Shown here one piece after another: positions 52,496-55,260 of a stretch of 64,000 nt of DNA. The DNA comes from Thermoplasmata archaeon (lineage in GTDB: Archaea; Thermoplasmatota; Thermoplasmata; Methanomassiliicoccales; Methanomethylophilaceae). The notes beneath the pieces are model-generated. The model was not told the origin of the DNA, did no database searches, and saw only the letters and a program-made list of their open reading frames with translations. The position numbers were made by a program, and so were the translations under genes. The first letter of the stretch is position 1. Each line of letters starts with the position of its first letter. The stretch is taken from NCBI GenBank assembly GCA_015063125.1, contig SUTB01000001.1:186001-250000 (forward strand). Direction: 5' to 3'.

Positions 52496-53623
52496 TTATT
52501 GGCTGATGGTCTTGGGATTGATCAGCTTGTTGACGATTACTTCCTTGATGTAAGGGTTGTAGACGTCCATATCGGGTTTCTCATCCAGTATCTTCTGTAT
52601 CTCCGATGATACGTGTGCGAAGATCGCTTTGTAAGCGCGGCAAGAGGCCCCGTCATTCTCCTCGAGGCCGTTCTCATAGCATGCATCCACGCTGCATCCT
52701 CCGTTGCAGAACTTGAAGATCTCGCAGGATGCGCATTTGTCACGCCTCTTGATGGATCCGACCAGGATGTTCCTGAACCCTTCCGACTGGAAGGCATCAG
52801 CTATTGAGTCGATATGATCTACGTTGCCCATGCAGAATTCCTTGGGGCACGCTTTGGCGCAGGGATACAGCGAACCGTCAGGATACATGCATATCCATTT
52901 GGTCAGGCATGACGTATGCGCACAGTCCGATGGAACCGGTTCGCCCAGATAGTTCTGGATGTACTGGAAGAAGGGCATCAGAGGAACCCTTGCGGTCTTA
53001 TCGTACAGCCATTCATCGAAAGCCTCGATGCTTCCTTTGATGAACTCGTCCGTGTCAGGGACGAAGCATTTCCCGCATCCCGCTGGGATGACCGGGGTCA
53101 GCGAGACGCTGATGTCCTTGTCCCTGAAGAAGCGGTATATCTCCTTCTGCTTGTCTGCGGTGTCTTTGGAGATGGTCGCACCCACGGTGTACATGTTCTC
53201 CTTCGCGGACAGCGTGTTGAGGGTCTTCTCCACGTCTCCTTCCCTCAGGATGCTGTTGTAAGGGCCTTCGTAGGACACTCCAACATTGATCTTCTTCTCC
53301 CTGCAGTAAGCCATCAGCCTCTTGTTCAGAAGGATTCCGTTGGTGTTGATGGTGTTGCCGTACCTCATGGAGTCCTTTCCGAAGTACTTCTCCTCGAAAC
53401 CGATGACCTCCTTGTAGAATGACATCGGCAAAGTGAGCGGTTCTCCTCCATGCCAGATGAACCAAGCTGTCTGGTATTCCTGGGAAGCCATCTTGATAAG
53501 CTTCTCGACCCTGTCGAGAGGGATCTCTGTTTTCACTCTGTCCTCGGGAACATGGTAGCAGTGCTTGCAATCGATGTTGCAGAAAAGTGTGGGTTTGATA
53601 ACGATGGTGATGTGTGGTTTCAT
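52496..53623 (-). CDS. Radical SAM/SPASM peptide-modifying enzyme
   Basis: 375 residues. Radical SAM motif CNIDCKHC (Cys15, Cys19, Cys22; C-x3-C-x2-C) near the N-terminus, HGGEPL (SAM-binding GGE) and NTNGILL later, then a C-terminal SPASM region with about ten cysteines (CxxxC..CMYPDG..PCAKACP..C and CASC..FCNGGC..C) for two extra Fe-S clusters. This layout is that of sulfatase-maturase-like (anSME) and RiPP-maturing enzymes. No sulfatase is in the window. The gene directly upstream encodes a Cys-rich small protein, the most likely substrate. ATG 53623 is preferred over GTG 53641, which would place the intergenic hairpin inside the coding region. Ends TAA. Confidence 0.87.
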   Translation of the reverse strand: MKPHITIVIKPTLFCNIDCKHCYHVPEDRVKTEIPLDRVEKLIKMASQEYQTAWFIWHGGEPLTLPMSFYKEVIGFEEKYFGKDSMRYGNTINTNGILLNKRLMAYCREKKINVGVSYEGPYNSILREGDVEKTLNTLSAKENMYTVGATISKDTADKQKEIYRFFRDKDISVSLTPVIPAGCGKCFVPDTDEFIKGSIEAFDEWLYDKTARVPLMPFFQYIQNYLGEPVPSDCAHTSCLTKWICMYPDGSLYPCAKACPKEFCMGNVDHIDSIADAFQSEGFRNILVGSIKRRDKCASCEIFKFCNGGCSVDACYENGLEENDGASCRAYKAIFAHVSSEIQKILDEKPDMDVYNPYIKEVIVNKLINPKTISQ

Positions 53624-53633
53624 GTTGGTTGAA

Positions 53634-53661
53634 TCCGCCACGGACGATGCACCGTGGCGGA
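53634..53661 (-). promoter_or_regulatory. Perfect 10-bp hairpin between Cys-rich small gene and radical SAM gene
   Basis: TCCGCCACGG - 8 bases - CCGTGGCGGA. It lies 13 bases after the small gene's stop (53675) and 10 bases before the enzyme's ATG. No T-run follows, so an mRNA processing or stability element, or partial attenuator, is likelier than a full terminator. It would let the small protein be made in excess over the enzyme. Confidence 0.65.
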
Positions 53662-53674
53662 GTTGAATGTAAAA

Positions 53675-53983
53675 TCAGAAGGGCCAATAGGGCCAGGCTC
53701 CGAAGAACCCGTCTGTCGCGTAACAGCAGCACGCCAGAAGAATGACGACGCTTCCGATGACACAGAGGTGCCATCCCCATGAGTTGCAGTATCCCTTGTC
53801 GCTGCAGCAGCAGTAGTCGCAGGGTGAGAGCTCGCTGTGCTCTGCATCGGCTCCCTTGTCGAAGCGCTCTGCGTGCTCGTTGTCCTGAGGAAGTCCCTCC
53901 ATGGAGAATGCGATGAATGCATTGGGGGACTGGTTCTCGTACATTGCTGTCAGTTTGTCGATGGATTCTGCATCGTAGGACAT
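53675..53983 (-). CDS. Cys- and aromatic-rich small protein, candidate RiPP precursor
   Basis: 102 residues. The first 50 or so are acidic and soluble with no cysteine, like a leader. All nine cysteines are in the second half: Cys55, 58-60, 66, 74 and 85-87. A short hydrophobic run (73-84, CVIGSVVILLA) lies between the cysteine groups, and the end is rich in aromatics and prolines (FFGAWPYWPF). It lies 51 bases upstream of a radical SAM/SPASM gene on the same strand. ATG 53983 has AGGTGA five bases before it; the GTG at 53992 lies in that site. Alternative: a tail-anchored metal-binding membrane protein. Not recognised as a known family. Confidence 0.65.
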   Translation of the reverse strand: MSYDAESIDKLTAMYENQSPNAFIAFSMEGLPQDNEHAERFDKGADAEHSELSPCDYCCCSDKGYCNSWGWHLCVIGSVVILLACCCYATDGFFGAWPYWPF

Positions 53984-53988
53984 GAAAT

Positions 53989-54042
53989 TCACCTTATCAG
54001 TGGGGTTCTGATAGGTTGGCTAAGAAGTTGCCACTATATAAT
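53989..54042 (-). promoter_or_regulatory. Promoter and leader hairpin of the Cys-rich small gene
   Basis: TATA box ATTATATA (54035-54042) predicts a transcript start near 54013. The leader of about 30 bases folds as TATCAG - AACCCCA - CTGATA (53995-54013), directly followed by the AGGTGA ribosome site (53989-53994). The hairpin borders the ribosome site and could influence translation. Confidence 0.45.
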
Positions 54043-54126
54043 TATTGATGGGTGGCTGACATCCAGCGAACCAATCTGGAATGGCCTCTGGGCTAAATCT
54101 TTATCATTTGTCATCGATGGTCGTAT

Positions 54127-55038
54127 ATGCTCGGGTACACCCTGCCTTACTACAACAGGCTCTCCCCTGCGGACAACAAGATCTACCGCAGGTACTACTG
54201 CGAGGGCTGCCACCAGTTGAAGGCAGGTTTCGGTGTCACGAGCACGCTGACCGTCAATTACGACATGACGTTCAACACAATTCTCCTCAACGGGATTGCC
54301 GGGGACGTATTGAATTTCGAAGGTACGAGGAAGAGGATCTGCGTGCTAGATAAGCCGAAAGCCGATTCCGATCTCATGAGGGCGATGGCCGCGTACACGC
54401 TGATTCTCACCAAATGGGAGCTTCACGACGATGATACCGACAAACCCTCGATGAAATCGAAGCTCGCCTCCACTGCTCTGGGGAAGGGAATCTCCAAGGC
54501 GGTATCCATGTACCCCGAGTACGACCGTATGGTCGGAGTGGGGTTCGAGAACCTCCACAAGTTGGAAACGGAGGGCAGCAAGGATGCAGTCCTCATGGGA
54601 AGGACCTTCGGAGAAGGTCTCATCGGTGCTCTCAGGGACATAGCCGGGGAGCATGCCAGCGATGATCTCGACAACGTCTTCAGGCAATTGAGCACCGTCG
54701 TGTACCTGATGGACTGCATAGACGATCTGGACGAGGATTTCATGGAAGGCACCTACAACCCCCTTCTTCCGGAATCCGGTTTCAAGAACGCTGCGGATTT
54801 CAGGATGAAGAAGGTCTACGACCTCACGGCCATGCTGAATTCCGAGATCGGATCCCTGCAGGAATCGTATTCAAGGGTCCGCCCTCAGCTCCGTGCCGGA
54901 ACTGGCATTTGCGACAACATCGTCTACTTCGGGATCCCAGACTCGGCAAAGAAGGTCATGATGGGCAGTTCGACTGCCAAGACCAGTGTCAAGAATGTCC
55001 TGTCCAATCGCAGGCAGAGGATGTCAGAGGGAACCTGA
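54127..55038 (+). CDS. DUF5685-like helical protein
   Basis: 303 residues, mainly helical. The N-terminus (MLGYTLPYYNRLSPADNKIYRRYYCEGCHQL..., YDMTFNTILLNG) matches the plan of DUF5685 proteins known from Firmicutes and Actinobacteria: a short start, an early CxxC pair and a TxxYD strand. An acidic DCIDDLDEDFMEG motif at about residue 200 is also typical. The function of the family is not established. Leaderless start likely (TTTATC box near 54099). Divergent from the Cys-rich/radical SAM pair, so possibly co-regulated; a role in that system is unproven. Confidence 0.6.
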   Translation: MLGYTLPYYNRLSPADNKIYRRYYCEGCHQLKAGFGVTSTLTVNYDMTFNTILLNGIAGDVLNFEGTRKRICVLDKPKADSDLMRAMAAYTLILTKWELHDDDTDKPSMKSKLASTALGKGISKAVSMYPEYDRMVGVGFENLHKLETEGSKDAVLMGRTFGEGLIGALRDIAGEHASDDLDNVFRQLSTVVYLMDCIDDLDEDFMEGTYNPLLPESGFKNAADFRMKKVYDLTAMLNSEIGSLQESYSRVRPQLRAGTGICDNIVYFGIPDSAKKVMMGSSTAKTSVKNVLSNRRQRMSEGT

Positions 55039-55260
55039 GGGATCGTATTCGGTGCAGACGTCCAGTTCGTACTTCTCCTCGCCGGTGCGGGAGCATACGC
55101 CTTTGGAGAAGAATCCGCAGTTCTCGCAGCAGCCGGGGCGGTACCTGTCACAGGTGGATTCTGGTGCCGTGTTCTTCACATTGACTACGCAGATCCACAT
55201 ACCGTCCTTGTGATTGCAGAACCTGCAGGTCTTGCATTTGCGGTACGCCTCGTTGGTCAT
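55024..55260 (-). CDS. Cysteine-rich mini-protein with two similar metal-binding-type halves
   Basis: 78 residues with 11 cysteines. Each half follows the same plan, C-x2-C ... C ... C-x2-(Y)-x-P: first CKTCRFC ... WIC ... STCDRYRP, then CENCGFF ... GVC ... DVCTEYDP. This indicates internal duplication and a Zn- or Fe-binding fold. No signal peptide. Not recognised. Convergent with the DUF5685-like gene, overlapping its last five codons. Confidence 0.65.
   Translation of the reverse strand: MTNEAYRKCKTCRFCNHKDGMWICVVNVKNTAPESTCDRYRPGCCENCGFFSKGVCSRTGEEKYELDVCTEYDPSGSL

Follow-up and report, generated by a model that had tools for sequence, protein, structure and literature searches.

Candidate three-gene protein-modification system of Methanomethylophilaceae linking a small cysteine-tail protein, a radical SAM/SPASM enzyme, and DUF5685

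Introduction

Cysteine string proteins of eukaryotes (DNAJC5) are co-chaperones that become lipid modified through DHHC palmitoylation. In archaea, the attachment of an isoprenoid-derived lipid to protein cysteines, as in lipoproteins carrying archaeol, is established chemistry according to work cited in PMC13290415. ComQ, ChrPC, and PalQ are peptide prenyltransferases with an isoprenoid-synthase fold that all act on tryptophan, and enzymes of this type carry a glutamine right before their second Asp motif, which supports tryptophan recognition (PMC13290415). Among radical SAM enzymes with a SPASM region, the anaerobic sulfatase maturase anSME has been described with a set of eight SPASM cysteines (PMC5491770) similar to that of the enzyme reported here. 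In the literature that we searched, DUF5685 was mentioned in a single paper, and nothing was found on radical SAM RiPPs of Methanomassiliicoccales or Methanomethylophilaceae or on bacterial cysteine-string J proteins.

Here, we analyzed a 64,000-nt stretch of a Methanomethylophilaceae genome (contig SUTB01000001.1 of assembly GCA_015063125.1, positions 186,001 to 250,000), which is referred to below as the window. It encodes a small protein with a cysteine-rich tail, a radical SAM/SPASM enzyme, and a DUF5685 protein (Table 1). We propose, with a probability of about 0.5, that these three genes constitute one protein-modification system. The gene set and the partners are established with high confidence; what we infer from them is which protein is the substrate, in what sequence the steps occur, and which chemistry each enzyme performs. 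A first-pass annotation of the same DNA had drawn attention to the small protein and the SPASM enzyme, and the divergent DUF5685 gene, a likely transmembrane helix (residues ~69 to 89 of the small protein), and a covarying RNA hairpin were all absent from it.

Table 1. Features of the locus, in window coordinates
Feature	Position	Strand	Remarks
Small Cys-tail protein	53675..53983	-	102 aa from ATG
Small-protein alternative GTG start	53992	-	ORF 53675-53992, 105 aa
Radical SAM/SPASM enzyme	52496..53623	-	375 aa from ATG; alternative GTG at 53641
DUF5685 protein (PF18937)	54127..55038	+	303 aa; divergent from the small-protein/enzyme pair
Intergenic RNA hairpin (small protein/enzyme)	53631..53663	-	10-bp covarying stem
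Divergent intergenic region	53984..54126	.	143 bp; candidate TATA-like ctatataatt near 54034-54044

A small cysteine-tail protein encoded directly upstream of a SPASM enzyme

The first-pass annotation had described a 102-residue protein with nine cysteines in its second half and a FFGAWPYWPF tail, located just 5′ of a full radical SAM/SPASM enzyme on the same strand, and both descriptions were borne out. The ATG start of the small protein (53983) is preferred over the GTG because a ribosome-binding-like AAGGTG lies just 5′ of it and because the ATG start is aligned in relatives, while the ATG of the enzyme is preferred because the alternative GTG falls inside the RNA hairpin. The first half of the small protein is free of cysteines, the nine residues being found at positions 55, 58, 59, 60, 66, 74, 85, 86, and 87. 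Its acidic leader (residues 1 to 54) carries L11, Y15, Q18, and S19 and is followed by a CxxCCC...GxC stretch (residues 55 to 66) and by the C-terminal tail CCCYATDGFFGAWPYWPF, which ends in FFGAWPYWPF. The small protein matched no solved structure. Known precursor families were rejected for it since scans against NCBIfam and Pfam gave nothing relevant, in agreement with the earlier remark that its hydrophobic core is unlike such families.

Across 31 diverse small proteins, Y15, Q18, C55, C59, C60, C86, Y88, W100, and P101 are invariant. Mean column entropy was 1.88 for the leader and 1.28 for the core, falling to 0.90 over the 18 C-terminal residues; the leader is thus less conserved than the core, and the tail with its YWPF end is the most conserved part, which is the reverse of the conserved leader and variable core for which a check had been suggested. 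Residues ~69 to 89 form a membrane-like helix with a mean hydropathy of 2.1, a value typical for a transmembrane segment to which the cysteines contribute in part. This is also the sole confidently predicted helix of the protein (block pLDDT of up to 85, with a whole-model mean of only 61), and it is likely to be a transmembrane helix. Unlike archaeal lipoproteins, the small protein shows no signal-peptide lipobox upon inspection.

The enzyme is present in 79 of the 102 family genomes surveyed (80 matches minus G045, where the match is merely to a distant paralogue). Directly upstream of it, close relatives of the small protein were found in 71 (72 matches minus one spurious). In the most divergent genera, a small ORF located by inspection retains the CY.CC motif, the hydrophobic stretch, CC.Y, and the WPF end. 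The small ORF lies directly 5′ of the enzyme gene wherever the contig extends that far, nearly all family genomes have one enzyme-linked copy, and in a sample of 300 genomes from the class the small protein was confined to this family. The adjacency, for which a search of archaeal genomes had been suggested, holds in ~70 genomes plus the divergent genera. In one locus (L076, genome G021), the small-protein frame lacks a stop codon behind YWPF and extends, in a different frame, across the start of the enzyme gene, owing to either a lost stop or a sequencing error.

These observations bear on the view that the small protein is the precursor of a classical RiPP. On this view, the SPASM enzyme would introduce crosslinks of the sactipeptide, ranthipeptide, or cyclophane type into the Cys-rich core, which would then be released by cleavage and exported to act as a signal or bacteriocin, and DUF5685 would be a tailoring enzyme. 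A small ORF adjoining a SPASM enzyme, its Cys-free acidic N-terminal part and Cys-rich second half, the hairpin between the presumed precursor and enzyme genes, and the nearest enzyme profile, which is that of the peptide maturase DynA, are all consistent with such a pathway. We nevertheless consider it unlikely since the core is more conserved than the leader, the protein occurs as a single enzyme-linked copy in nearly all family genomes, a membrane-like helix lies within the core, and no transporter, exporter, or peptidase was conserved around the pair in the related loci compared. The precursor/maturase relationship that the first-pass annotation had proposed is thus retained in part: adjacency, obligate pairing, and correlated divergence speak for it, and the classical RiPP picture is not supported.

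In genus g1, an RNA hairpin specific to this genus separates the small-protein and enzyme genes. In an alignment of 13 sequences (the window and loci L011 to L018, L020, L022, L025, and L027), its 10 pairs were 96.9% paired, and 20 cells had changed on both sides versus 7.4 in shuffles and at most 5 in slid controls. The GCATCG loop is invariant in all 13 sequences, the hairpin has a single match in the genome, and no match to Rfam was obtained. The hairpin may determine how much small protein is made relative to enzyme, and its position between the genes fits what would be expected if a substrate is made in excess of its enzyme.

The SPASM enzyme scores below the cutoffs of characterized families

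The enzyme was assigned to the radical SAM/SPASM superfamily with 41.7 bits against PF04055 (cutoff, 29.5) and 38.7 bits against TIGR04085 (cutoff, 27). It carries a C-x3-C-x2-C motif along with eight SPASM cysteines (C237, C242, C258, C300, C303, C309, C313, and C331 in alignment numbering) that are invariant in 28 relatives. The best NCBIfam model was DynA NF041298, with 157.9 bits for a cutoff of 450, and the scores against the methanogen peptide-modifying family TIGR04083 (114 bits; cutoff, 300) and the SCIFF/ranthipeptide family TIGR03974 (60.5 bits; cutoff, 425) were also below threshold. The enzyme resembles the SPASM peptide maturases (DynA, TIGR04083, GrrM, and anSME) in combining a radical SAM domain with a SPASM region and two predicted auxiliary clusters and in its adjoining small protein with cysteine and aromatic residues. 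It differs from them by scores far under the curated cutoffs, by a conserved C-terminal extension past the DynA-aligned region, and by its partner, a conserved membrane-type protein.

The nearest solved structures are those of anSME (E value of 4e-22), and the likeness of the eight SPASM cysteines to those of anSME (PMC5491770) could likewise suggest formylglycine formation in the manner of an anaerobic sulfatase maturase. However, the enzyme reached only 146 bits against TIGR03942, the model for this family, for a cutoff of 349. The absence of a nearby sulfatase, already pointed out in the first-pass annotation, was found to extend to the whole genome. In addition, the position matching Asp277, which we take to be the catalytic Asp of anSME, is occupied by A, G, or S in 28/28 enzymes. 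Because of this substitution and of the genome-wide absence of a sulfatase gene, a formylglycine role is scarcely credible.

The CxxxCxxC motif of the radical SAM domain is missing from the enzyme of one genome (G001, genus g2) and retained in the other 27/27. In G001, the small-protein and DUF5685 genes are intact beside the altered enzyme, and the residue preceding the invariant Trp of the small protein is Q in this genome only, compared to an aromatic residue in 65/67 proteins and Cys in 1. At most, this single genome hints that the aromatic end of the small protein is the radical target. The same enzyme (locus L107, 5600-6700, minus strand) has also lost its GGEP motif and kept its SPASM cysteines. 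At a separate locus (L108, G033:C6), a paralogous SPASM enzyme occurs without a small Cys protein or DUF5685, and a further ORF following it contains CNANCDYCY, a motif of the radical SAM-like type.

DUF5685 co-occurs with the pair and has a predicted fold like that of isoprenoid synthases

The divergent gene matched PF18937 with 141.9 bits, well above the gathering score of 26.7. According to blast searches with the window ORFs, DUF5685 is divergent from the pair and adjoins or lies near it in the 39 loci examined, which cover all genera with the pair; an insert of ~2 to 4 kb separates them in L075 and L080. In L080 (genus g9), the intervening DNA includes a gene that looks by eye like a nitrogenase component. 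A whole-genome profile search of the 102 family genomes found DUF5685 in 81, with DUF5685 and the enzyme both present in 78 genomes and neither in 20. The four mismatches (DUF5685 only in G004, G027, and G072; enzyme only in G041) concern genes that lie on a short contig or at the very end of one, and within these contig limits the two genes are all-or-none across the family. The linkage is strong but not absolute, since in G077 a distance of ~20 kb on one contig separates DUF5685 from the pair. Pairwise distances of the three proteins gave Mantel correlations of 0.80 to 0.88, values that vertical descent in common could produce alone.

This separation in G077, together with the opposite orientation of the gene, would be compatible with DUF5685 being merely a conserved neighbor of a two-gene SPASM pair. 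Such an arrangement seems quite improbable in view of the all-or-none pattern, of the persistence of DUF5685 by the pair in all genera despite the inserts, and of a parallel pairing with Cys tails in Clostridia (see below).

The motifs of DUF5685 consist of a Dx3D (D101/D105), a D196x3D200x3D204, and a Y24-C25-x2-C28 accompanied by C72, and all of these aspartates and cysteines (D101, D105, D196, D200, D204, C25, C28, and C72) are common to the archaeal and bacterial proteins. AlphaFold2 applied to the family alignment returned an all-helical model (pLDDT of 89.7), for which the top Foldseek matches in the PDB were mostly isoprenyl diphosphate synthases and terpene synthases (probability of 1.00, best E value of 0.01, and TM scores of 0.45 to 0.49, i.e., under 0.5). 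A profile comparison with squalene/phytoene synthases (SQS_PSY) based on six sequences was not significant; the best local alignment sets the second Asp motif in register, with a score of 21.4 versus 12.7 for the reversed control. From the predicted fold, DUF5685 appears to be an isoprenoid-synthase-like enzyme, although this is not proven. It would share with ComQ, ChrPC, and PalQ (PMC13290415) the isoprenoid-synthase fold, two Asp-rich motifs, and a small peptide partner. In contrast to these enzymes, it has C25, C28, and C72, lacks a Gln before D196 of the second motif (Y193 being invariant), and has partners with Cys-rich tails in common instead of a single Trp.

The invariant C55, C59, C60, and C86 of the small protein and C25, C28, and C72 of DUF5685 could instead point to metal binding. 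Here, the Cys tails would hold a metal or Fe-S cluster, the small protein, loaded by DUF5685, would carry electrons in the membrane or act as a metal scaffold, and the SPASM enzyme would be an electron-transfer partner. The G001 enzyme, with its radical SAM motif lost and its SPASM cysteines kept, is what would be expected if the auxiliary clusters matter more. On the other hand, DUF5685 has kept the Asp motifs of isoprenoid synthases, the CxxxCxxC motif persists in every other enzyme, and the invariant WP(F) end is left unexplained, so that a metal-binding role is improbable in our assessment.

DUF5685 accompanies cysteine-rich tails in Clostridia

Two plasmid matches to DUF5685 first pointed to J-domain proteins with Cys-rich ends, and scanning of genome contigs then yielded 80 DUF5685 loci from Clostridia. 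In 70 of these, the product of the adjacent gene is a J-domain protein that has 5 or more Cys among its 40 C-terminal residues (69/70 under a stricter rule), the typical end being ...CADCCCECMGGDLISCC. The background frequency of such ends is 11% of ORFs and is itself raised by these genes. Neighbors with ten-Cys tails in L246 and L249 were missed by the J-motif rule, and in L197 the Cys-tail protein is one gene further away. Overall, 73/75 evaluable loci, all chosen by their DUF5685 gene and excluding five that end too soon (L200, L224, L237, L241, and L243), carry a J-domain-type Cys-tail protein; L195 and L248 do not. In 50 Clostridia loci, the J-domain Cys-tail gene is followed by a gene for a small membrane protein (e.g., L219, 7718-8251) that had no match in Pfam or NCBIfam.

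No relative of the SPASM enzyme was found within up to 6 kb on either side of the Clostridia DUF5685 genes, and the enzyme is limited to the archaeal version of the system. In a genome from another family of the same order (G116; L275, 7290-10599), a bacterial-type DUF5685 precedes, in this order, a J-domain protein whose short end is rich in Cys (MACIFCCHEGC) and DnaK. The presence of this locus in G116 may reflect gene transfer or contamination.

Profile-profile alignment of the archaeal and bacterial Cys tails detected no homology, the reversed control scoring no worse, and the likeness between them is therefore one of composition. With the archaeal small protein on one side and the J-domain proteins of Clostridia on the other, the association of DUF5685 with Cys-rich tails spans two domains of life. 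The Clostridia partner resembles DNAJC5 in being a J-domain protein that ends in a Cys string, which makes eukaryotic cysteine string proteins a plausible analogy for it. However, it is bacterial and has a TPR-like region, and its genetic partner is isoprenoid-synthase-like rather than a DHHC palmitoylation enzyme, while the archaeal small protein has no J domain at all.

A possible route for modification of the cysteine-rich tail

In the three-gene system that we propose, the small protein would be a resident, membrane-inserted protein and not a secreted peptide antibiotic. Its N-terminal Lx3Yx2QSPxAF would likely serve as a docking site, and the Cys/aromatic C-terminal region (CxxxCC, helix, CC(C)Yx(T/S)..G..YWPF) would likely be the part that is modified. 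The SPASM enzyme, of which the small protein is probably the substrate, would add a radical modification to the tail, most likely a crosslink or oxidation at Cys and/or at the aromatic YWPF end. There is about an even chance that DUF5685 acts on the same tail. Cysteine is favored as its putative target because the Gln is absent, the cysteines are conserved, and the partners share Cys, and the reaction would most likely be the joining of an isoprenoid or related lipid to Cys; lipidation as such is a tentative suggestion.

The computed evidence for this system comprises the gene set and its all-or-none occurrence, residue conservation, the fold predicted for DUF5685, and the pairing in Clostridia. 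Against it count the tails without profile homology, the Foldseek TM scores, the nonsignificant SQS_PSY comparison, and the absent Gln, as do the G001 enzyme without its CxxxCxxC and the distant DUF5685 of G077. In a wider and equally tentative reading, DUF5685 is a family of prokaryotic lipid transferases whose members prenylate cysteine-string tails or lipidate them in some other way. Their targets would be the tails of J-domain co-chaperones in Clostridia and that of a small membrane protein in these methanogens, the latter receiving a second modification from a SPASM radical enzyme. If this reading is true, the J-domain co-chaperones of Clostridia would be a bacterial counterpart of the eukaryotic cysteine string proteins.

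The pairing of DUF5685 with Cys tails points to an undescribed way to modify cysteine-rich protein tails. It is also a hint that such cysteine-string proteins may exist, and be modified, outside eukaryotes. A family so far lacking an assigned function, with members in Clostridia and in the majority of genomes from this methanogen family, thereby gains a testable function, and a SPASM enzyme family without assignment is added, with an unusual conserved membrane-protein partner. Should the modification be real, both enzymes would perform new chemistry on Cys- and aromatic-rich tails.

Another cysteine-rich protein near DUF5685

A further Cys-rich protein of 78 aa is encoded at 55024-55260 on the minus strand, tail-to-tail with DUF5685 and overlapping the end of its gene. 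This protein is also found near DUF5685 in 18 further loci from four other genera.
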